DNA from: a virus
Direction: 5' to 3' (one strand)
Virus record (IMG/VR): IMGVR_UViG_3300038299_000100
Span: 1 to 36,565 of that record
DNA length: 36,565 nt
The position numbers and the translations under genes are program-made. The notes under the pieces were generated by a model, which saw nothing but the letters and a program-made list of their open reading frames with translations, was not told where the DNA came from and searched no databases. The stretch's first letter is position 1; every line of letters starts with the position of its first letter. Of this stretch, positions 332-27,251 are shown piece by piece.

Positions 332-1353
332 TATTCACCTCGCATAGCAGAGACATACAAGTCTTGCATAATGCTTTTCAATTTATTTTTATCTACATCA
401 ATTTCATAATTGTCGATGTAACTAGTAAGTAAAGACATAGTATCCTTTGTAGTATCCACATCACTTTGCTCTTCAAACTCAAAATCAGTTTCATCCACAA
501 TGGACAAATCTGCTACGCCGGCCTTATATAAAGAATCCACAAACACATCAAACTTATACTGATCTGTTTTATTTGTAACGACAACTTTAATGTATTTGTT
601 AGCAAATGAGGAAAGTTTATATTCTCTAGTTTCGTCATAAAAGATTTTATGAAACAATTGATGAGGATTCTTGATAAAGTCTAGTTCTAAAGTTTCTGTA
701 TCTAAAATATGAAATCCTTTGGCATCATTACAGTCATTCCAGTACATTTCATATGGAGAACCCAAATAATGAATATTACCTTGATTTGATTTTGTATGAA
801 AATGTCCAGAACAAGTTAAATCAAACTTCTTAAACAATTTAATATCCATACCAGCTTCACACTTGATACCACGCATCATTTCAAATCCATTCAACTCCAG
901 ATGTCCTAGAGCAACAGTTGCTTTTGTTTTTTTCAGATGTTTGGTAGTTTGGTTTAAATTATCAGAATTTATCCAAGGAACAAGACACACATCAATCCCA
1001 CCAGTATTAATAGTAGTGGCTTCTGTATAAACCTTGAAATCATCACCGAAAAGCTGTTCCATAGAGTTAATACGGTTTGTGTTCTTATAATACACATCAT
1101 GATTACCAACAATAAAATGAGTGTCATACTTACGCATCTTCTCTATAAAGCCAATCTTCAATCCATCCAAAATGTTATAATTGATAAACTTGCGTCGATC
1201 AGTAACATCTCCAAGATGAATTACAGTGGTTATTTCATTTTCTTCTAGATATGGAAAAAAGATATTATCATAGAATTTCATAAAATACTCATGAAATAAA
1301 GCAGAGTCTCCCCTTGCCCCAAAATGAGTGTCAGTTATTAGGGCAATTTTCAT
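331..1353 (-). CDS. 47: gp47 recombination endonuclease subunit (SbcD/Mre11-like nuclease)
   Basis: Calcineurin-like metallophosphoesterase, nuclease partner of gp46. All family motifs are visible: DTHFGARG (D8, H10), HLGDVTDRRK (D49), GNHD (N84, H85), GHLELNG (H151) and GHFHT (H184, H186), the di-metal ligand set of Mre11/SbcD nucleases. Its 340 residues match T4 gp47. It overlaps the gp55 3' end by 4 bases upstream and gp46 by 1 base downstream, so gp55-gp47-gp46 look like one translationally coupled minus-strand unit. A sigma70-like promoter before gp55 (1922-1950) could drive all three early. Confidence 0.97.
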   Translation of the reverse strand: MKIALITDTHFGARGDSALFHEYFMKFYDNIFFPYLEENEITTVIHLGDVTDRRKFINYNILDGLKIGFIEKMRKYDTHFIVGNHDVYYKNTNRINSMEQLFGDDFKVYTEATTINTGGIDVCLVPWINSDNLNQTTKHLKKTKATVALGHLELNGFEMMRGIKCEAGMDIKLFKKFDLTCSGHFHTKSNQGNIHYLGSPYEMYWNDCNDAKGFHILDTETLELDFIKNPHQLFHKIFYDETREYKLSSFANKYIKVVVTNKTDQYKFDVFVDSLYKAGVADLSIVDETDFEFEEQSDVDTTKDTMSLLTSYIDNYEIDVDKNKLKSIMQDLYVSAMRGE

Positions 1354-1895
1354 GAAGGTTCCTTGTTGTCTCTTTTCTCTTTTGCTTTCTCTTTTTTCTT
1401 TCGTTGAGTCTCTTCAAAATCTGCAAGAAAATCATCCATATTACTCTGCAAGAATTCCATAAAATTATTCTTCACAGGAGTGCCGTTAGGGCCTTGCATG
1501 ATTTCGTCAATCAGTTCTTGATTCTCCAAGGCCTTATACTTAACATATGTCTGCTTTTTCTCTTTCTGTATCCTTCGGATGAAGGCATAATAGATAATCT
1601 GCGTAAAATATGCAAATGGATTCTTAGATTTCTCTGGGTTGAAATTATCAATGTATAAAAGACAATTCTCAATACCATCTGAGATCATTTCTTCTTTATA
1701 TGTATAGTTGATAAAATTGGGTTTGTATGAGAGATGTTGTGCAATCTTCATGATACATTCCCCTATGTAGTTAGGTACTCTAGGTCGTTCTGTATCTGAT
1801 GCTTTTGCAGTCTCTACTGACTCTTTATACTTGGTCATCTCTACTAACAACTTTTTGTTGTCTACATAGTGATTTCTTGTTGGTTTTTTAGCCAT
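1350..1895 (-). CDS. 55: gp55 sigma factor for late transcription
   Basis: Small phage sigma factor that directs host RNA polymerase to late promoters (TATAAATA type). The central part (roughly residues 45-135: ECIMKIAQHLSYKPNF, EEMISDGIENCLLYI, FAYFTQIIYYAFIRRIQKEK) has the sigma region-2-like helices seen in gp55 of T4-like phages, and 181 aa is close to T4 gp55 (185 aa). Near the C-terminus, MDDFLADF is a hydrophobic/acidic stretch that could be the sliding-clamp-binding motif, followed here by a Lys/Glu-rich tail; this motif assignment is inference. Position beside gp47/gp46 is the usual one in marine T4-like phages. The many TATAAATA sites in the window are its expected targets. Confidence 0.93.
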   Translation of the reverse strand: MAKKPTRNHYVDNKKLLVEMTKYKESVETAKASDTERPRVPNYIGECIMKIAQHLSYKPNFINYTYKEEMISDGIENCLLYIDNFNPEKSKNPFAYFTQIIYYAFIRRIQKEKKQTYVKYKALENQELIDEIMQGPNGTPVKNNFMEFLQSNMDDFLADFEETQRKKKEKAKEKRDNKEPS

Positions 1896-10760: not shown

Positions 10761-13700
10761 TTAAACTGCACCAACAATTTCATTGAAATCAACACCAGTA
10801 CGAACTGCAACAAAGTTGAGTTGAATGAAGTTGATTGATCTTGCAGGCTGAATGAAGATATCTCCAACGAATTCATTTCTATCGATAACCTCACCAGTAT
10901 TATTTGTATCATCACATACAACCTTAAAGTCATATATTCCTCTTCTACCTTGTACATCTCTCAAGAATGGTTCAATCAAAGCTGTAAACTGCGATCTTGT
11001 AAACTCATCATTGAATTCGAATAAAGTAAACTTGGCTGAAGTTGCAATTGATTTTTCTAGAACGATAAACAATCTTCTTACATTAATTCTGCTGAATGCT
11101 GATGAATTGAGAGTTAGAGTTTTATCACCAAACAATACAGTTCCTTGGCCTGGGAAGCTTACAACTGGATTGATTGCTGCAGTGTATAATGCATCTCTAT
11201 CAGCTTTATTCTGAGATTGCATAGTTTTCACTACACCTCTATAAACTCCACGATTAAATCCTGCTGGAGAATACCAAGCATCTCTATCGTTTTCGCTTCT
11301 TACCATCAATCCTGCTGTATCTGCATTAAATGGTACATATCTGTACTTATCGTTATATTTATCGCTCATGTACTTATAGTTTGAATCTGCGAATGCATAT
11401 GTGCTCGATGTAACATTGCTGAAGAATGCGATTTGATTTGCACTTGAACCGGCATCTCTATCTGCTCTCACATCTACCTCTCTAGGAGAAATACATGCAA
11501 CAGCGTCTTTTCTTCCTTCCGCAAGATCAACGATATGAGAAACAATACCGTGTGCTGAGTCATCACTTTCAGCAACATCTGCTGCTTCGCCCTGTAGAAT
11601 GAAACCCACATCTACATTTTCTGCATCTGCAAAATGATCAAATCCTGCTTGGAATTGTGCAACAGTAGGTGTGATACCTTCTTGTCCATTACCCATTGGT
11701 CTTCTAACAAATAGTTCTGTTCCATCACTATTTCCAGATTCCGACAATTTGGCAAAAGTTCTTGTGGATACCAATCCACCCCAATCGCCACCAGCAATCG
11801 GATGATTCATTATATGGACATATTTAGAGTTTGTATTGATGTAATCTACATAATATACACGAGCTCCATTTTCAGTTTTACCATCTGAAGCTTTTGACAT
11901 ATTTGTTAATACTTCAATATTTTGTGCTGAACCATCAGGATATACTTTTTGTACAACCATAGCAACACCTTGTGATAATTTTTTATTATCAGGTGTTCCA
12001 GCGCGATATGTTACACTGTTATCGATTGTGCCATCGCCTGCTCTCGGCGCACCAGCTAGTGCTGATGCAACTGCCGGATGTGCAGTTTTAAGACTATCAA
12101 ATGATGTCTCATCCACTAAATAGATAACTAAGTCATTCGCCCAAGCGCCTGGATTTCTTGCAACAAATTCATGTCCATTTGCAGCAGCAGCTCCAAATCC
12201 AACATTGTCTTCGAAATGCGTGTCATTGGGTACATACATATTGTTTGCAAAAGTAAATGAGTTTGCATTTGCATTTCTGATAGTTGCAGTAACAACAGCA
12301 CCGTCTGCTGGAATGGATGCAGTAGCAAATTCTACTCTCGAACCACTTCCAACAAGGGTATAGTGAGTTCCACTTGAAAGTGTAGTTCCGCCTGCATCTA
12401 CGAGTTCTAATGTCTGTCCACCAGAAACATTTACTGCTGGATTTAATGTGAAGGATCTTCTAGCAGGAACAGTAACTGTTACTGTTTCACCAGTGAGCGG
12501 TAGATTTGATGTAAATGTGATTACATTGCTATTCGCAGCGACTGTAAAATCAGACGCTGAATAAGCACCATCAGCTGAAGAAACTGCAGTTACTAATGAG
12601 TTTGTCACTGCATATGTGCCTGGAGCTTCAGATACTAAGAATGCTGCCTGTTGAGCAATACTAATTACAACTTCATCATTGTCGTTTGCAAACAAACTAA
12701 TTGCACTATCTGCTGGCGCAGTAGCTGCTTCATGTACCGCAACTGTTGAGAGCGTTGGCATATAGAATACTTTATATAGTTTGTGATCAGTTTCTGAACC
12801 AGCAGACATTGTAATATCTGTTCCGCCAGTATTTGTTGAATATGTATATGTGTCGCTAAGAACAACATCTGCACCAGAAACACTTTTTACATAGTATGTT
12901 GTCGAATTAGTAAGTCCAGTTGCCTCTGGTGTTCCAGAGTCTTTGTATACTACAACATCACCCTGTGCTAGTCCATGACTTGCATTAGTTAATGTGATTG
13001 TGTTTCCAGCAATAGCTGATGCGTCGAACTGACTTCCATATTTTTCGAAGTAATGTCCATGTGATGCTCCAGTTCCACCTGCTCCAGAATCTGCAGCGTT
13101 TGCATCTGTTTGTCTAGTGTATAGTGGAGAAAAGAAACCGCCAGTTGTGAATTGTGTTCCAGTAGTTGACCACGCCTTGTTTGCATCTGAATGTATATAC
13201 CATGGGCCGGAATTTGAAGTATTACCGATCTCATCAGCTAATGAAATCTTAGTTGTTCCGCCGTTTGCACTACCAGATTCGCCAAGTGACCAACGAGATG
13301 CTGGTAATATACCACCAGTTTCTCCTGTACCTCTGATTGAAACTGTGATATCTGACGCAGCGAGATCTCTTAGATTTGTATCAGTTCCTGCTGCAGCTCC
13401 ATTTGTTGTTACTAGTGTAGAACCATCGGTTGCTAATCTTGGAAGTAGGTATTGTGAGTTAACACCTTGAAATAGGTCAAATGCTGACATAGTTCCAGAA
13501 ACTGCAGTAGTTATTGTTTGTGCAGATGAACCATAGAATGCTGTAGAAGATTCTGCAGTTCCTGTTAATGTTTGTGTTCCTGCTACAGCGGCTGAAACTG
13601 TTACTTTACCAGATACCGCATTTAATGTTTTATTAGCGTCACTGACTGCTGTATTATTTGCAACTCTTACAACTTTTATTGAGGCTGAGTATGCTAAGAA

Positions 13701-13913
13701 ATTGGCTGCAGTGAACCAAGATTTGTAGTTTGTATCATTTGGCTCGCCAAAAATTGATTTCAACTGCTCTTCGCTGGAGACTTCTACGATTTCCCCGATA
13801 GGGCCTTTAGAAAATCTCCCAACCATAGCACCGATATTAGTGACTAAGGCTGGAACGCTTGTTGATGCATCAATTTCAGAAACGTTAACGCCAGGACTTA
13901 CTTGGAATGCCAT
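10761..13913 (-). CDS. 18: gp18 contractile tail sheath protein with large insertion
   Basis: Contractile sheath subunit. The N-terminus (MAFQVSPGVNVSEIDASTSV, TNIGAMVGRFSKGPIGE, EEQLKSIFGEPND) and the C-terminal ~470 residues (HEFVARNPGAWANDLVIYLV, AVACISPREVDVRAD, ND-RDAWYSPAGFNRGVYRG, SFPGQGTVLFGDKTL, INVRRLFIVLEKSIA) are classic sheath sequence. At 1050 aa it is far longer than T4 gp18 (659). The extra material, roughly residues 105-560, is Ala/Thr/Ser/Gly-rich and beta-predicted, with Ig-like-looking segments such as ITLTNASHGLAQGDVVVYKD. It probably forms domains on the outer surface of the sheath. The reading frame is intact throughout. Late promoter at 13957-13964. Confidence 0.96.
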   Translation of the reverse strand: MAFQVSPGVNVSEIDASTSVPALVTNIGAMVGRFSKGPIGEIVEVSSEEQLKSIFGEPNDTNYKSWFTAANFLAYSASIKVVRVANNTAVSDANKTLNAVSGKVTVSAAVAGTQTLTGTAESSTAFYGSSAQTITTAVSGTMSAFDLFQGVNSQYLLPRLATDGSTLVTTNGAAAGTDTNLRDLAASDITVSIRGTGETGGILPASRWSLGESGSANGGTTKISLADEIGNTSNSGPWYIHSDANKAWSTTGTQFTTGGFFSPLYTRQTDANAADSGAGGTGASHGHYFEKYGSQFDASAIAGNTITLTNASHGLAQGDVVVYKDSGTPEATGLTNSTTYYVKSVSGADVVLSDTYTYSTNTGGTDITMSAGSETDHKLYKVFYMPTLSTVAVHEAATAPADSAISLFANDNDEVVISIAQQAAFLVSEAPGTYAVTNSLVTAVSSADGAYSASDFTVAANSNVITFTSNLPLTGETVTVTVPARRSFTLNPAVNVSGGQTLELVDAGGTTLSSGTHYTLVGSGSRVEFATASIPADGAVVTATIRNANANSFTFANNMYVPNDTHFEDNVGFGAAAANGHEFVARNPGAWANDLVIYLVDETSFDSLKTAHPAVASALAGAPRAGDGTIDNSVTYRAGTPDNKKLSQGVAMVVQKVYPDGSAQNIEVLTNMSKASDGKTENGARVYYVDYINTNSKYVHIMNHPIAGGDWGGLVSTRTFAKLSESGNSDGTELFVRRPMGNGQEGITPTVAQFQAGFDHFADAENVDVGFILQGEAADVAESDDSAHGIVSHIVDLAEGRKDAVACISPREVDVRADRDAGSSANQIAFFSNVTSSTYAFADSNYKYMSDKYNDKYRYVPFNADTAGLMVRSENDRDAWYSPAGFNRGVYRGVVKTMQSQNKADRDALYTAAINPVVSFPGQGTVLFGDKTLTLNSSAFSRINVRRLFIVLEKSIATSAKFTLFEFNDEFTRSQFTALIEPFLRDVQGRRGIYDFKVVCDDTNNTGEVIDRNEFVGDIFIQPARSINFIQLNFVAVRTGVDFNEIVGAV

Positions 13914-21116: not shown

Positions 21117-21124
21117 TATTTATA
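21117..21124 (-). promoter_or_regulatory. late promoter (TATAAATA), minus half of a palindrome
   Basis: Exact TATAAATA reading left, 27 bases before the LamG fibre gene. It shares two bases with the plus-strand late box at 21123-21130, so the pair forms the perfect palindrome TATTTATATAAATA. Confidence 0.85.
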
Positions 21125-21130
21125 TAAATA
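21123..21130 (+). promoter_or_regulatory. late promoter (TATAAATA), plus half of a palindrome
   Basis: Exact TATAAATA reading right, 32 bases before the membrane protein gene at 21162. With T4 spacing the transcript would begin near 21136, leaving a leader with the ribosome site TGGAGAA before the ATG. Confidence 0.82.
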
Positions 21131-21161: not shown

Positions 21162-22424
21162 ATGATACTATCTATAACTTTATTAATGGTTGCGATTGCT
21201 TTATCCGTAGTTGCCGCATATTATTCTATTGCAGGCCTGATTACAATCTTTGCCGCGGCAGTAATCCCTGTCATTGTTATGGCATCTGTTTTGGAAGTTG
21301 CCAAGGTCTTAACTGCTGCATGGTTATCACACAATTGGAAAAGAGTCAACTTTTTTCTTAAAACATACTTGACATTTTCAGTCGTAGTACTTATGTTAAT
21401 AACCAGTCTTGGAATATTTGGATTTCTATCTAAGGCACATATCGAACAGACTTCTAGTGGAAAAGAGAATGTTGCACAAATAGAAATCACCGAAAAAAGA
21501 ATAACCAGGCTGGAAGAGGATATTGTTGATTTTGAAAATCAAATAGAAAAAATAGAAAATTCAAATGTCTCTAAGAATAAAGATATTGCAAAAGAGATAG
21601 AAAAAGAAGAACAGAGAATTGAAGATGCACTTGGAAATTATCAAAGACTTGTAGATGAGCAGAATGAAATTATAACATCATCTACAAAGAAACTAGATTT
21701 AATAGACAGGTATTTAGAAGAAGAAAACATTAAAGCTTTACAAACTTTGGTGGGTACTACTCCAGATGGACAATATGGAAGGAACACTGCTAAAAAAGTT
21801 ACTGAATTTAGAGAAAAAGAGGAACAGAAAGCAGAAGAAGTTGTTGCATCTGCTAGACAAAGAATTAATGAATTACGTGACAATCAAGGTGAAGAGAGAA
21901 GATTGAGTAATGATCTGATTGATAGACTGAGAAAACAAATAAGTTTAGATGATTTGGATGAGGATGACAAGGCTAGAATTTCAAACATCAAGAAAAACAT
22001 ACTGACATCAGAAGAAGAACTTACTGTTTTGAATAACATAAAATTCGAATTTGAAAAAGAAGTGAGAAAATTTGAAGCAGAAGTTGGTCCAGTAAAATAT
22101 GTTGCGGAAGTTCTTTATAGTGATGTCGATGAAAATGTTTTAGAAGATGCAGTCAGATTTGTAATTCTTTGCTTAATTTTTGTTTTTGATCCACTTGCGA
22201 TACTTTTAGTTATTGCCAGTTCGTCTTCTATATGGTATTATAGAGGAATCAATAAAGGAGAGAATCTAACCCATCTGACAGAAGAAGATTTTAAAAAAGA
22301 CCAAGCCATCCCGCCATATGGTATGGATATGATGGAAGACAAAGTAAAAAAAAAGCCAAACCTCAATGATACAATTGAGAACTGGACAAACGAAAAAGTT
22401 GAAAACCACGATAGATTAGAATAG
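21162..22424 (+). CDS. coiled-coil inner-membrane protein with a peptidoglycan-binding-like motif
   Basis: 420-residue protein, not assigned to a named function. Three N-terminal membrane segments (about 2-20, 25-47, 68-90) are followed by a long Glu/Lys-rich coiled coil (about 105-320) and a fourth membrane segment at about 333-356 (FVILCLIFVFDPLAILLVIA), then a polar tail. FVFDPLAxLLxIA ends resemble the DUF4407-type membrane proteins found in phages. Within the coil, about residues 188-216, IKALQTLVGTTPDGQYG with NTAKKVTEF follows the pattern of PG_binding_1 repeats (LQxxLGxxxDGxxGxxT). It heads the plus-strand island; the ribosome site is TGGAG. It ends 10 bases before thyX. A role in the cell envelope or lysis is possible but unproven. 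Confidence 0.8.
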   Translation: MILSITLLMVAIALSVVAAYYSIAGLITIFAAAVIPVIVMASVLEVAKVLTAAWLSHNWKRVNFFLKTYLTFSVVVLMLITSLGIFGFLSKAHIEQTSSGKENVAQIEITEKRITRLEEDIVDFENQIEKIENSNVSKNKDIAKEIEKEEQRIEDALGNYQRLVDEQNEIITSSTKKLDLIDRYLEEENIKALQTLVGTTPDGQYGRNTAKKVTEFREKEEQKAEEVVASARQRINELRDNQGEERRLSNDLIDRLRKQISLDDLDEDDKARISNIKKNILTSEEELTVLNNIKFEFEKEVRKFEAEVGPVKYVAEVLYSDVDENVLEDAVRFVILCLIFVFDPLAILLVIASSSSIWYYRGINKGENLTHLTEEDFKKDQAIPPYGMDMMEDKVKKKPNLNDTIENWTNEKVENHDRLE

Positions 22425-22434
22425 GAGTATCGTA

Positions 22435-23145
22435 TTGGGAAAAGTTAAGTTAGTTAGTTATACCAAATCTGCAGAAGATTTGGATGAACAGGGCGTGGAG
22501 ACATTACAAGATTTGGTAGCGTATTGCGCCAAAGTATCTAATCCTTCGAGTCAAATAAACAAAAAAACAAGTGAAAAACTCATCAAATATTTAATCAAAC
22601 ATGCACATTGGTCGCCATTAGAGATGGTTGATGTGACAATGGAAATAGAAACCACCAGAGATATTGCACACCAAATGGTTCGCCATCGCAGTTTTTCTTT
22701 TCAAGAATTTAGTCAAAGATATGCAGAGCCCAAAGAGATGGGAGAAATGTTTGTAAAGAGAGAGTGTAGATTGCAAGACACTACAAATAGACAGAATTCT
22801 ATTGAAATTGAAACTGACCCAAGTCTTGTGCAAAATATCAGCCATCAGGAATTAATTGCAGAATGGAATAGAAGACAATCTGGTGTTATTGAAACTGCAC
22901 GAAAGGCGTATGAATGGGCAATTGAAAGTGGAATTGCAAAAGAACAAGCTAGGGTTTTACTTCCAGAAGGATTGACAAAGACTAGATTATATATGAAAGG
23001 TAGTATGCGTAGTTGGTTGCATTATATTGAATTAAGAAGCGCTCATGGAACACAAAAAGAACACATGACAATTGCAAAAGAATGTGCAGAAATTGTTTCC
23101 GAAATATTTCCTATGATATGGACAATTAAAGGCATAGAAAAGTAA
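22435..23145 (+). CDS. thyX: ThyX flavin-dependent thymidylate synthase
   Basis: Makes dTMP from dUMP using FAD, NADPH and methylene-tetrahydrofolate for phage DNA synthesis. The ThyX signature RHRx7S is present as RHRSFSFQEFSQR (83-95), preceded by HWSPLEMVDVTMEIETTRD and followed by the substrate-binding RVLLPEGLTKTRLYMKGSMRSWLHYIELR split region (RVLLPEG about 204 and MRSWLHYIELR). Length 236 aa is typical. The start is TTG, chosen because AGGAG lies 6 bases upstream and GKVKLVSYT is the usual N-terminus; no nearby in-frame ATG fits. Common in marine T4-like phages. Confidence 0.96.
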   Translation: MGKVKLVSYTKSAEDLDEQGVETLQDLVAYCAKVSNPSSQINKKTSEKLIKYLIKHAHWSPLEMVDVTMEIETTRDIAHQMVRHRSFSFQEFSQRYAEPKEMGEMFVKRECRLQDTTNRQNSIEIETDPSLVQNISHQELIAEWNRRQSGVIETARKAYEWAIESGIAKEQARVLLPEGLTKTRLYMKGSMRSWLHYIELRSAHGTQKEHMTIAKECAEIVSEIFPMIWTIKGIEK

Positions 23146-23151
23146 ATTCAA

Positions 23152-23191
23152 CCTCTCTTTTTCTGTTTTTTTATAAATAGGGGAAGAGAGG
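23152..23191 (+). promoter_or_regulatory. hairpin sequestering a ribosome site, with a late promoter in its loop
   Basis: CCTCTCTTTTTC (23152-23163) can pair with GGGGAAGAGAGG (23180-23191) over 12 positions, nine Watson-Crick and three G-U. The 16-base loop contains the TATAAATA late box. The 3' arm holds the AGAGAGG ribosome site of the gene at 23199. Read-through RNA from thyX would hide that site; a transcript starting near 23185 lacks the 5' arm and would expose it. Confidence 0.65.
23172..23179 (+). promoter_or_regulatory. late promoter (TATAAATA) for the small-protein/curli operon
   Basis: Exact TATAAATA on the plus strand after the thyX stop, 20 bases before the next start codon. It is the only late box found ahead of the genes running to the cyclase. 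Confidence 0.85.
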
Positions 23192-23198
23192 AATAATT

Positions 23199-23486
23199 AT
23201 GGATTTTCTTAGTTTAGTAGGTGACGTAGGTTTCCCGATAGCATCAGCTCTTGCTGGTGGTTTTTTCGTTTTTCTAACACTAAAATTCATCTTGGCTGGT
23301 GTCTTAGACGATATCCGCACCCAAAGAGGATTCGTAAAGTCTCTTGATAATAGAGTAAAAACGATGAACAACGAACTTTTGAGAATAGATATATTGATGT
23401 GTCGTTCATTCAACATTCCATTACTGCCCGCCGACTTGAATCGAATTTCTAGGGCAGATGGACAACAGGATGCTAGAAAGGATTAA
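23199..23486 (+). CDS. small single-span membrane protein A (holin-like appearance)
   Basis: 95-residue protein, family not identified. Short N-terminal part with a membrane helix at about 8-34 containing VGFPIASALAGGFFVFLTL, then a soluble helical tail (VKSLDNRVKTMNNELLRIDI). A GFPI membrane motif followed by a coil recalls small BhlA/UviB-type holin-like proteins, but this is only resemblance. It is paralogous to the gene at 23855-24148: both share GFPIxxALxxGxF-F, then L(I)-RV-x-x-(N/D)N-(E/D)L-(L/I)R at the same spacing. First gene of the late operon, ribosome site in the hairpin at 23180-23191. Confidence 0.75.
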   Translation: MDFLSLVGDVGFPIASALAGGFFVFLTLKFILAGVLDDIRTQRGFVKSLDNRVKTMNNELLRIDILMCRSFNIPLLPADLNRISRADGQQDARKD

Positions 23487-23488
23487 AC

Positions 23489-23668
23489 ATGTTGTGGAAA
23501 GATTTACTATTAATGAAATTTCAAAATGGTTTTCGCATTTTGACAAATAAAGATCCAGATGATAAATTTTTTGTTATTGATGACGTAGAGTTTAATATCG
23601 GCGATGTTTATAAAGTAGGCCCAAATGGATTTTTTGAGAGAATTGGAACAGAAAATGCTTTGGATTGA
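23489..23668 (+). CDS. small soluble protein B (59 aa)
   Basis: A short ORF starting MLWKDLLLMKFQNGFRILTN and ending GFFERIGTENALD. The ribosome site AAAGG lies about 6 bases before the ATG, which follows the upstream gene's stop by 2 bases. It is paralogous to the next gene: both begin MLW, have a polar middle, and end with GDVYKVGPNGFFERI versus GDVFRVNDDGWLVKV. This alignment is the main evidence that it is a real gene. No function recognised. Confidence 0.7.
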   Translation: MLWKDLLLMKFQNGFRILTNKDPDDKFFVIDDVEFNIGDVYKVGPNGFFERIGTENALD

Positions 23669-23855
23669 ATATGCAATAGAACAAGCAGGTAGAAACTGGA
23701 AAGTAAAGGGTGATTGGCCAGGAGAGGTTATGGGGTTGGACAGCCAAGGCAATTCCAAAGAACACTATCTTTACAAGCCAGGAGATGTTTTCAGAGTTAA
23801 TGATGATGGATGGTTGGTAAAAGTTATGGATGAAAACGGAGCTACGAAAGATTAA
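23655..23855 (+). CDS. small soluble protein B' (66 aa), paralogue of the preceding gene
   Basis: 66 residues from the chosen ATG at 23655: MLWIEYAIEQAGRNWKVKGD to MDENGATKD. A longer reading from 23625 exists, but the MLW start aligns with the paralogous 59-residue protein and the longer start has no better ribosome site. It overlaps that gene by 14 bases. The C-terminal YKPGDVFRVNDDGWLVKV looks like a small beta hairpin module. Its stop shares a base with the ATG of the next gene, so translation is coupled. Function unknown. Confidence 0.7.
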   Translation: MLWIEYAIEQAGRNWKVKGDWPGEVMGLDSQGNSKEHYLYKPGDVFRVNDDGWLVKVMDENGATKD

Positions 23856-24148
23856 TGGAAGAATATGATATTGCTGCTGCAATCGGGCAATATGGATTTC
23901 CTATTATTGCAGCATTAGGCCTTGGCTATTTCATATTTTATATTTGGAATTGGGTGACTCAAGAAGTCGATCCAGTCATAGAAGAATCTCACCTGACATT
24001 AATTGGATTGATTGATAGAGTGCGTATGTTGGATAATGACCTTATAAGACTTAATACAAAACTGAATATGATACTCGCTCAGCAAGGAACTGAAATTCCT
24101 AAAGACGATGAATTAGAACAGATAATTAAAAGTCAGAAAGAAAAATAA
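23855..24148 (+). CDS. small single-span membrane protein A' (holin-like appearance)
   Basis: 97-residue paralogue of the protein at 23199-23486. A membrane helix at about 13-33 (YGFPIIAALGLGYFIFYIW) is followed by a polar helical tail (LTLIGLIDRVRMLDNDLIRL). The order of the four small genes is thus A-B-B'-A'. Two bases separate it from the csgF-like gene, so it lies within the curli operon. It could be a holin-like or envelope protein, or an accessory to the secretion system; no motif decides. Confidence 0.75.
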   Translation: MEEYDIAAAIGQYGFPIIAALGLGYFIFYIWNWVTQEVDPVIEESHLTLIGLIDRVRMLDNDLIRLNTKLNMILAQQGTEIPKDDELEQIIKSQKEK

Positions 24149-24150
24149 AA

Positions 24151-24612
24151 ATGAAATATTTTATATTTACCGTATTTTTACTTTTGCCAATATCAATCAA
24201 CGCATCAGAGATGACATGGGGATTTAAAAATCCAGCATTCCATTATGGAAATGGATATTCAACTCATGTTTTGAGCGTAGAACAGTTGGGGCATAATCGT
24301 AAAGAAGATATAAGAAAAGAAGCGGAATCTGAAGCTGCAAGAATTGAAAGAGAACTAGAAAATTCTACTCTTAATAAGTTCATCCGTAATATTGAATCTA
24401 GAATTTATGCTCAATTATCAAAACAGATGGTTGATTCTATGTTTGCAGATTGTATCGATACCTGTTCCAATACAGGAACAGCGGAAATTGAAGGATCTAC
24501 AATTAATTGGGAAAAAGATACTACTACGGATGAAATAACACTGACTATCACTACTGAAGATGGATCAGTTACAACTATCACTGTGCCGGGCGGCGGAGAG
24601 TTTGGATTCTAA
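24151..24612 (+). CDS. csgF: CsgF-like curli assembly protein
   Basis: Secreted accessory subunit of the curli (type VIII) secretion pore. In Escherichia coli the CsgF N-terminus inserts into the CsgG channel and the rest links the pore to fibre nucleation. Residues 1-18 are a signal peptide (cleavage near NASE). The mature start EMTWGFKNPAFHYGNG matches the E. coli pattern TMTFQFRNPNFGGNP, the CsgG-binding segment. The C-terminal TINWEKDTTTDEITLTIT and VTTITVPG correspond to the family's beta-rich end. Length 153 aa versus 138 in E. coli. A CxxxC pair (CIDTC) near residue 100 is extra. It shares one base with the csgG start. Confidence 0.9.
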   Translation: MKYFIFTVFLLLPISINASEMTWGFKNPAFHYGNGYSTHVLSVEQLGHNRKEDIRKEAESEAARIERELENSTLNKFIRNIESRIYAQLSKQMVDSMFADCIDTCSNTGTAEIEGSTINWEKDTTTDEITLTITTEDGSVTTITVPGGGEFGF

Positions 24613-25436
24613 TGAAACTACATTATGTAATACCATTACTTCTATCGCTTGGTGGGTGTGCAATGATGCCGTCATTGGATGTGTTGAATGATTTGGACGA
24701 GTCACCAACCATTCAAGAAAGTCCTATTGATGCTAGATTGAAAGATGTTCCACCAATTGATGGAAAGAAGATAACAATCGCAGTGTATCAATTTATGGAC
24801 AAGACGGGGCAGCGAAAGCCTGGCGATAACATTGCAAACCTTAGTTCTGCAGTTACACAAGGTTCAGAGGTTTGGGTGATTAAGGCATTGCAAGATGTCG
24901 GCAATTCAAAATGGTTTGAGGTTGTCGAGAGAGTTGGAATGGACAATCTTATCAAAGAAAGACAATTGATAAGAAATACTAGAGAAATATATGAAAAAGA
25001 CAGGGAAGCCGGCCCAACAGCATTAAAACCTATGATTTTTGCTGGATTGTTATTAGAAGGTGGGGTTGTAGGATATGATAGTAATACTGCTGTTGGTGGT
25101 ATCGGCGGCCGCTATCTTGGAGTTGGCGCTCAAACAGAATATAGAATAGATACAGTAACTGTAGTTATGAGATTAGTTAGCGTTAATACAGGTAAAGTTT
25201 TGATGAGTATTGCCACGGAAAAATCTATCGCAAGCTATAGATCAGGGGCGGATGTTTTTAAATTTCTAGATCTAGGAACTAAACTTGTAGAAACAGAGGC
25301 AGGATTTTCAGTAAACGAACCTGTGAATTATGCAGTTCGTGCAGCTATCGAACAGGGAATTATAGAACTTGTCTATGAAGGTGTTGATAAAGGATTATGG
25401 AAATTTAAAACTACTAAAGGAAAGGAAAACAAATAA
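24612..25436 (+). CDS. csgG: CsgG-like curli secretion pore lipoprotein
   Basis: Outer-membrane lipoprotein that forms the nonameric curli export channel. The signal peptide ends in the lipobox LGGC (C16). Strong CsgG stretches: KITIAVYQFMDKTGQRKPGD (53-72), WFEVVERVGMDNLIKERQLI (101-120), GGVVGYDSNTAVGGIGGRYL, GVGAQTEYRIDTVTVVMRLV, VSVNTGKVLMSI and NEPVNYAVRAAIEQGI, plus VDKGLWKF at the end. Length 274 aa (E. coli 277). In the channel constriction loop (about 70-80), E. coli has Tyr51, Asn55 and Phe56; here the Tyr and Phe positions appear as Gly/Asp and Leu, with Asn kept. It overlaps neighbours by single bases on both sides. Confidence 0.95.
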   Translation: MKLHYVIPLLLSLGGCAMMPSLDVLNDLDESPTIQESPIDARLKDVPPIDGKKITIAVYQFMDKTGQRKPGDNIANLSSAVTQGSEVWVIKALQDVGNSKWFEVVERVGMDNLIKERQLIRNTREIYEKDREAGPTALKPMIFAGLLLEGGVVGYDSNTAVGGIGGRYLGVGAQTEYRIDTVTVVMRLVSVNTGKVLMSIATEKSIASYRSGADVFKFLDLGTKLVETEAGFSVNEPVNYAVRAAIEQGIIELVYEGVDKGLWKFKTTKGKENK

Positions 25437-26152: not shown

Positions 26153-27251
26153 TTTAGTATTATTATTTCCAACTATTGCATTTGGGTCTGCTGGAGAAAT
26201 CGGTTCTTTTACTGGTAGTGGAGTTTTAGAAAGAGATAATCGGGTTATCGATGGTGGTGCTGGTGTCGGCGTTCAGTCTATGGACACAGCAGTTACTGCA
26301 AAAGGTAGAATGAGAATTGATTTTATAGACGATACTAGAGTTGATATAACTGAACATGCAAGACTTCTTATCGATGATTTTGTATACGATCCAAATACTG
26401 GTAGAGGTAGTTTAGGGCTGAAAGCAACGCTGGGTACAGTAAGATATGCTAGTGGTCAAATTGCAAAAAATAGTAGACAGAGAGTAAATATTCGCACCCC
26501 AAGTGCAAAGATTAATGTAAGAGGTACAGATTTTATTATGGTTGTAGATGAAATTGGTGGTACAATGATTACTCTACTTCCTAGCTGTGATATTTCTGGT
26601 AGTTGTGTGACTGGAGAAATTATGGTAGAGAATGATAACGGATTTGTCATAATGAATCAAGCATTTCAATCTACAATTGTCAAACAATCTTGGACTCCGC
26701 CACTCAAACCACTACTATTAGGGCTTGAAGAGGGAGATATAACAAATCTTCTAATACTTAGAAAAAAATCCCCCTATCTAGAAGAAGAGGAAGAAATTGT
26801 TAAGAAAGCACGTAAGATGTATGAATTTCTTGATATTGACTTCTTAGAATTTGATGGATTGGATGAAGATGCACTTGTAGATGATATAAAAAACATTTGG
26901 GCAACTGAACTAAATAATACAGATTTATATCTCCAAGAATTACTTCATGATATGTTAGACCAACTAAACATTGCCCTTGCAGAACTTTTCAGAGATGAAC
27001 TGGAAAAACAAAATGAAGAGTTTTTTGCAGAAAGAACTCTTGGTTATGATAGTAAAACTAGAATAACTTTAGAAAATCAAGATCCCAATTGGAGAGTCCA
27101 GAGAGAAGATACTTCTATAACCCATTACTTAGATTTAAAATTAAATCAATCATATGGGTATATTATAAATATGGAGCAACAAGATGACACGATTTATGAC
27201 TATCGCCTTGGTGTTGGTAACAACACTATTAATATCATCCAAGTCCAGTAG
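26124..27251 (+). CDS. secreted FecR-domain protein
   Basis: 375 residues from the chosen ATG at 26124; a longer reading from 26085 would put charged residues before the signal peptide. MMSILRNLTSLVLLFPTIAFGS is a signal peptide, and the ribosome site GGTGA lies 6 bases upstream. The FecR fold follows: VGVQSMDTAVTAKGRMRIDF, TRVDITEHARLLIDDFVYDP, GTVRYASGQI, RVNIRTPSAKINVRGTDF. After it comes an acidic helical half (YLEEEEEIVKKARKMYEFLD and onward). FecR domains in secreted proteins are often found beside CHASE2-cyclases in bacteria. Placed between two curlin-like genes and overlapping both, it is probably translationally coupled; it may bind or anchor fibre subunits (inference). Confidence 0.85.
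   Translation: MMSILRNLTSLVLLFPTIAFGSAGEIGSFTGSGVLERDNRVIDGGAGVGVQSMDTAVTAKGRMRIDFIDDTRVDITEHARLLIDDFVYDPNTGRGSLGLKATLGTVRYASGQIAKNSRQRVNIRTPSAKINVRGTDFIMVVDEIGGTMITLLPSCDISGSCVTGEIMVENDNGFVIMNQAFQSTIVKQSWTPPLKPLLLGLEEGDITNLLILRKKSPYLEEEEEIVKKARKMYEFLDIDFLEFDGLDEDALVDDIKNIWATELNNTDLYLQELLHDMLDQLNIALAELFRDELEKQNEEFFAERTLGYDSKTRITLENQDPNWRVQREDTSITHYLDLKLNQSYGYIINMEQQDDTIYDYRLGVGNNTINIIQVQ

Follow-up and report, generated by a model that had tools for sequence, protein, structure and literature searches.

The viral DNA analyzed here (a stretch of 36,565 nt, referred to below as the window) carries a curli-containing operon whose first gene, orf95, follows thyX on the same strand. The thyX gene ends at 23145, and the terminator scan listed no terminator between the two genes. 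The original prediction was that the orf95 ribosome site is part of a hairpin that also harbors the late promoter of the operon, so that orf95 would be translated from late transcripts but not from read-through RNA. The features of the locus are listed in Table 1.

Table 1. Features of the thyX-orf95 junction and of related loci in the window
Feature	Position	Strand	Basis
gp55-like late sigma factor	1350..1895	-	phrog_234, E 3.6e-63
Upstream-unit late box, within a divergent palindrome	21123..21130	+	motif; conserved in L003-L005
tsp420, putative membrane protein of 420 aa that opens the upstream unit	21162..22424	+	weak sub-threshold Tetraspanin match
thyX, upstream gene and presumed read-through source; its stop lies 6 nt 5′ of the hairpin	22435..23145	+	Pfam Thy1 4e-45
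Hairpin 5′ arm, only in read-through RNA	23152..23168	+	fold, 17 pairs
Loop of the full-length fold	23169..23174	+	fold
Late promoter box of the T4 type, TATAAATA; RNA start predicted at ~23185	23172..23179	+	enriched motif, gp55-like sigma, T4 analogy
Hairpin 3′ arm	23175..23191	+	fold
orf95 Shine-Dalgarno GAGAGG, within the 3′ arm	23186..23191	+	sequence
orf95, 95 aa, the operon's first gene, with a hydrophobic helix at the N terminus	23199..23486	+	phrog_18771 (uncharacterized family)
orf97, orf95 paralogue	23855..24148	+	same phrog_18771
csgF	24151..24612	+	Pfam CsgF 3.3e-14
csgG	24612..25436	+	Pfam CsgG 2.6e-49

The predicted structure of orf95 is essentially a single long helix (pLDDT 71), and a Pfam search of orf95 gave nothing beyond a weak resemblance to YvrJ (E 0.07). 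Together, orf95 and orf97 form a tandem of small helical proteins that is widespread in phage contigs, and some of these pairs have no curli genes nearby in the sequence covered around them. A terminator-like hairpin (23242-23259) followed by TTTTTTCG lies within codons 15-21 of orf95; when the hairpin in codons 14-21 was considered as a possible attenuator, the stems averaged -6.7 compared with -5.9 under synonymous reshuffling, which is weak evidence. Elsewhere in the window, the tail sheath protein (10761-13913, minus strand) is very large (1050 aa, where the matching profile has 496 positions), and therefore big insertions are probable.

The Ribosome Site of orf95 Lies in a Stable Hairpin

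The junction at 23146-23201 reads ATTCAACCTCTCTTTTTCTGTTTTTTTATAAATAGGGGAAGAGAGGAATAATTATG. As had been predicted, the arms 23152-23163 (CCTCTCTTTTTC) and 23180-23191 (GGGGAAGAGAGG) pair over 12 positions, through 9 Watson-Crick and 3 G-U pairs, and the 16 nt that separate them are TGTTTTTTTATAAATA. Folding extended the stem beyond its first description to 17 bp (23152-23168 with 23175-23191), closed by a 6-nt loop. The loop had been taken to be almost exactly the late box, but 5 of the 8 box bases (23172-23179) are paired in the 3′ arm of the full fold. That the 3′ arm contains the ribosome site of the operon's first gene was borne out by the Shine-Dalgarno sequence, located 7 nt before the ATG at 23199.

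The hairpin at 23152-23191 is real and beyond chance. The fold of 23146-23201 (-22.0 kcal/mol) was not matched by any of 200 dinucleotide shuffles (z -5.8), and in an 801-nt RNA (22800-23600) the pairing probability was ≥0.98 for 16 of the 17 hairpin pairs and 0.93 for the innermost one. When the 26 nt upstream were shuffled with their composition kept and TATAAATA...ATG held fixed, 28 of 20,000 shuffles (0.14%) reached the hairpin energy, and only 3 of 24,268 other 26-mers from the window, all of them from one C/T-rich stretch, folded as well. These two tests set the chance of finding such a hairpin at ~1e-3 to 1e-4, a figure that applies per site, before allowing for the ~12 late promoters in the window. 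A search against Rfam gave no match at the hairpin; its best match, far under the cut-off, lies at 23323-23361 in orf95 and resembles the DUF805b RNA (19.6 bits, cut-off 35.6, E 0.006).

RNA Starting at the Predicted Late Promoter Would Escape the Hairpin

The window contains 14 copies of TATAAATA compared with 4.2 expected, and 0 of 100 shuffles reached 14. In addition to the gp55-like sigma factor, the window encodes head, tail, helicase and recombination genes of the T4 type. Among related contigs, a box of the form NATAAATA precedes orf95 in 89 of 128 leader clusters. A late transcript start near 23185 is supported as a predicted position placed by analogy with T4 and, with the box at 23172-23179, a late RNA beginning there would lack the 5′ arm (23152-23168). 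Late boxes were noticed at two other sites of the window: the palindrome TATTTATATAAATA (21117-21130), which is conserved in L003-L005, is made of overlapping divergent late boxes between a baseplate-like gene on the minus strand and the 420-aa gene on the plus strand, and the late box at 27164-27171 is internal to a FecR-domain gene and precedes the second curlin-repeat gene, which starts at 27184, by 20 nt.

Folding of read-through RNA and of RNA starting at ~23185, proposed as a check of the original prediction, agreed with it, giving a computed accessibility difference of 12-16 kcal/mol. The cost of freeing the region from the Shine-Dalgarno to the AUG was 15-18 kcal/mol for all tested RNA starts up to 23152, dropped to 3-4 kcal/mol for starts from ~23158, and was about 4 near 23185. 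When 122 late-promoter genes were scanned (those of the window, of T4 40-75 kb and of the loci fetched by then), the orf95 site ranked first with a difference of 16.4 kcal/mol. The same scan recovered T4 I-TevII (12.7) and T4 gene e (12.6 and 11.5 at its two late promoters), and the recovery of these known cases validates the measure.

From these folds, RNA entering from thyX would have both arms and form the 17-bp hairpin, hiding the Shine-Dalgarno sequence and leaving orf95 untranslated. The late sigma factor would start RNA at ~23185, within the 3′ arm, and orf95 would be translated from this RNA devoid of the 5′ arm. The RNA hairpin may in this way play the role of the terminator that stands beside the same promoter in related phages.

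Comparison with T4 gene e and Translational Coupling as a Less Likely Alternative

The proposed arrangement resembles that of T4 gene e, where the box TATAAATA is also found in the hairpin region, the Shine-Dalgarno sequence lies in the 3′ arm, the late RNA starts downstream of the 5′ arm, and a co-directional upstream gene ends just before (PMC3014915). A review cites a 100-fold effect of that hairpin on lysozyme synthesis (PMC3014915). Gene e is unrelated to orf95, as is its sequence to the orf95 leader, and early read-through RNA and its repression are experimentally known in T4, whereas the orf95 switch is computed and the recognized upstream promoter is also late. Late RNA similarly escapes the RBS-masking hairpin of longer transcripts at T4 I-TevI, I-TevII, I-TevIII and segB and at Aeh1 mobE, although these genes encode homing endonucleases and orf95 opens a curli-associated operon (PMC2988022). 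The same cluster of orf95-like, orf97-like, csgF and csgG genes is present in pelagimyophage HTVC008M and in Methylophilales phage Melnitz (PMC7029224, PMC9004378), and the accessible text of these two papers makes no mention of the hairpin or promoter architecture of the curli operon.

Because the stem starts 6 nt past the thyX stop, ribosomes finishing thyX might melt the outer stem, and orf95 would then be translated in proportion to thyX, so that the hairpin would link the expression of the two genes instead of shutting one off. With the ribosome edge at 23155-23157, the computed opening cost falls to just 4-7 kcal/mol, and the stem is close behind the upstream stop in some other hairpin lineages too. 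However, T4 gene e is equally tight after nudE (37-nt gap) and is nevertheless repressed ~100-fold on read-through RNA (PMC3014915), and coupling would leave the constant presence of a late promoter inside the structure unexplained. Since gene e, with the same arrangement, is still strongly repressed, we consider coupling unlikely and rank it second to the promoter-in-hairpin switch.

Timing and Extent of the Predicted Silencing

The tsp420-thyX unit (plus strand) lies behind a divergent gene, and the only promoter recognized for it is the late box at 21123, which is kept in its orthologues in related contigs. A consensus early promoter was not found upstream of tsp420-thyX, where sigma-70 matches were at chance level. 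The idea of a late-only switch thus holds insofar as the orf95 site is computed to be masked on thyX read-through RNA, but not as to the read-through being early, and to describe orf95 as translated solely from its own promoter is safer than to call the switch "late only" because the only recognized promoter of the upstream unit is also late. In the same way, the proposal that the second half of the island is silent on read-through RNA is supported by calculation for the orf95 ribosome site and does not extend further, as no masking was found beyond the site of this first gene.

In other hairpin lineages (L-numbers designate loci or leaders from related contigs), orf95 is the last gene of long same-strand runs; the run of L100 includes thyX and a DnaB-type helicase and that of L376 includes PhoH and exonucleases, and no other late box was found upstream in the sequence covered for L100, L112, L376, L365 and L170. 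Such long upstream runs without a late box would, as expected, fit an early-versus-late switch.

Conservation of the Arms and Origin of the Junction

The carriers of the hairpin that were found are L002/L082/L190 (one contig, 99%) and L193 (95%), so that the hairpin is known from three contigs, all of one lineage, and two DNA pattern scans gave no additional carrier of the arms. The expected conservation of the arms failed in relatives whose orf95 is 94% identical (L083-L088), where the arms are missing: similarity to the window starts at the late box, the upstream sequence is different, and the hairpin is absent. In L193, there are 0 changes in the 40 nt of the hairpin, compared with 17-22% differences at fourfold sites of the flanking genes, but this identity was not counted as selection on the hairpin because the whole block to ~23583 is nearly unchanged (orf95 fourfold sites, 1/40). 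As a test of the hairpin, arm conservation was uninformative in both close carriers and was set aside; the arms have no independent conservation. The stretch ~23131-23583 is almost identical to L193, which is ~5% diverged elsewhere, as if it had been recently exchanged, and one of its edges is at the hairpin.

The three loci with tsp420-thyX orthologues (L003-L005) have an intrinsic terminator immediately after thyX, and in the L004 and L005 contigs orf95 is many kb off, preceded by a short terminator-like hairpin and by a CATAAATA box. We infer that in the window lineage the upstream unit and the orf95 unit were joined, that both terminators were lost, and that the hairpin now separates the two units.

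Masking Structures Appear to Recur before orf95

Four IMG/VR queries supplied the leaders of orf95 homologues, and these were collapsed into 66 distinct late-box lineages. Structures that mask the ribosome site, and that can form only if the RNA extends upstream of the start site, were found in unrelated sequences across these lineages. The masking stem closes on a TTG start in L098-L106, the hairpin has two pairing registers in L111-L114, the 5′ arm is located between the late box and the start in L121/L122/L207/L208, and L365 and L376 are further masking leaders; the shuffle null was widened because its upstream-only version missed 5′ arms located between box and start. On the orf95 tree, the seven strongest hairpins need six changes, with at least six forced by well-supported branches. 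The masking hairpin would therefore appear to have arisen repeatedly for orf95 in related phages. Covariation could be followed in these other lineages in few sequences and without a formal count: the 5′ arms changed with pairing retained via a shifted register in L111 versus L112 and in L098 versus L099, one G-C to G-U change distinguishes L121 from L207, and L103 has a broken pair.

When the read-through-only part was permuted among leaders, the excess masking was lost (mean 1.33 kcal/mol; 0 of 20,000), although part of this mean may reflect shared base composition because other late genes show 0.73 (p 0.03). The majority of orf95 late-box leaders are without a masking hairpin, and the number of strong hairpins does not differ significantly between orf95 (6/66) and other late genes (2/81; p 0.14).

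Two loci were noticed beside this survey. At L094:637-676 a late box lies in an RBS-masking hairpin before a gene that by eye resembles a GIY-YIG homing endonuclease, and this hairpin stands behind an apparent tRNA 3′ end in a layout that recalls T4 segB. At L097:2717-2752 a strong late-promoter hairpin (CATCCTTT..ACGG with CCGT..AAAGGATG) precedes an uncharacterized 82-aa gene.

Masking Depends on the Read-through Context

The leaders were classified by mechanical rules, i.e. a same-strand ORF ending ≤130 nt upstream, an opposite-strand ORF, or a terminator ≤75 nt from the box, with one terminator added by hand (L195, a stem and then TTTTCG). The median composition-corrected masking was 2.52 where read-through is expected and there is no terminator and -0.49 elsewhere (Mann-Whitney 7e-5, calculated without a masking cut-off, on lineages that are partly dependent and with rules set after the first survey had been seen). 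An excess of ≥3 kcal/mol was observed in 10 of the 21 same-strand, terminator-free contexts (the other 11 fall short of it) and in 0 of 45 elsewhere, and for each cut-off in the range 3-10 kcal/mol the masking cases belong without exception to the read-through class. The effect was reproduced in both halves of the orf95 tree (0.003 and 0.006) and became weaker, 0.0003 and 0.003 at two distance limits, when upstream ORFs >90 aa were required. In other orf95 lineages, a terminator next to the late promoter takes the place of the hairpin. Among other late genes, a same-strand upstream neighbor does not predict hairpins. The signal of orf95 is this context dependence, rather than the bare count of hairpins.

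These results bear on the reading that the hairpin is a fortuitous pairing of a C/T-rich intergenic stretch with the purine-rich region of the late box and Shine-Dalgarno sequence, with no regulatory role. The upstream stretch is of low complexity, composition-keeping shuffles do reach the energy at the low frequency given above, and the arms offer no independent conservation, but the first rank in the accessibility scan and the context dependence across the family argue against chance, which we regard as improbable and somewhat less likely than coupling. It is very improbable, and again less likely than coupling, that the structure serves the thyX mRNA as a 3′ end or stability element, blocking processing or decay, stable and directly behind the thyX stop as it is, since no U-run follows the stem, no terminator is listed on either strand, and both the masking of the ribosome site and the enclosure of the promoter would be accidental. 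An intrinsic terminator of thyX was rejected separately, because the stem is followed by AAUAAUUAUGG on the plus strand and by UUGAAUUUAC on the minus strand, with no U-run, and is absent from the terminator scan.

Taken together, the fold, the position of the late box, the gp55-like sigma factor, the energy difference and the comparative pattern bear out the gene e-type architecture, and the hairpin probably is a promoter-in-hairpin switch of this type that insulates the curli-associated operon from read-through.

Implications for the orf95 Family

The mechanism is known from a handful of T4 genes, and its assignment to the orf95 hairpin is well supported by computation and comparison; it is the apparent recurrence for a single gene that is of interest here. 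A gene e-type switch would now be known among uncultured marine phages too, where it would precede the first gene of the unexplained curli operon. The TATAAATA late promoters are recognizable in a phage group for which, in the accessible text of PMC7029224, late-promoter prediction in pelagimyophages is reported as unsuccessful.

We tentatively suggest, as a possibility that falls somewhat short of an even chance, that in marine and other T4-like phages the orf95 family has been repeatedly selected against read-through translation and that each lineage solves the problem anew by divergent placement, a terminator next to the late promoter or a masking hairpin that includes this promoter. If this is true, the small orf95 membrane protein would be harmful when made too soon, as would be, for example, a lysis-timing protein. 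The apparent repeated origin of the hairpin for one gene suggests a simple rule by which genes whose premature expression a phage has to avoid could be located in genomes, and orf95, a small putative membrane protein, would be one such gene.
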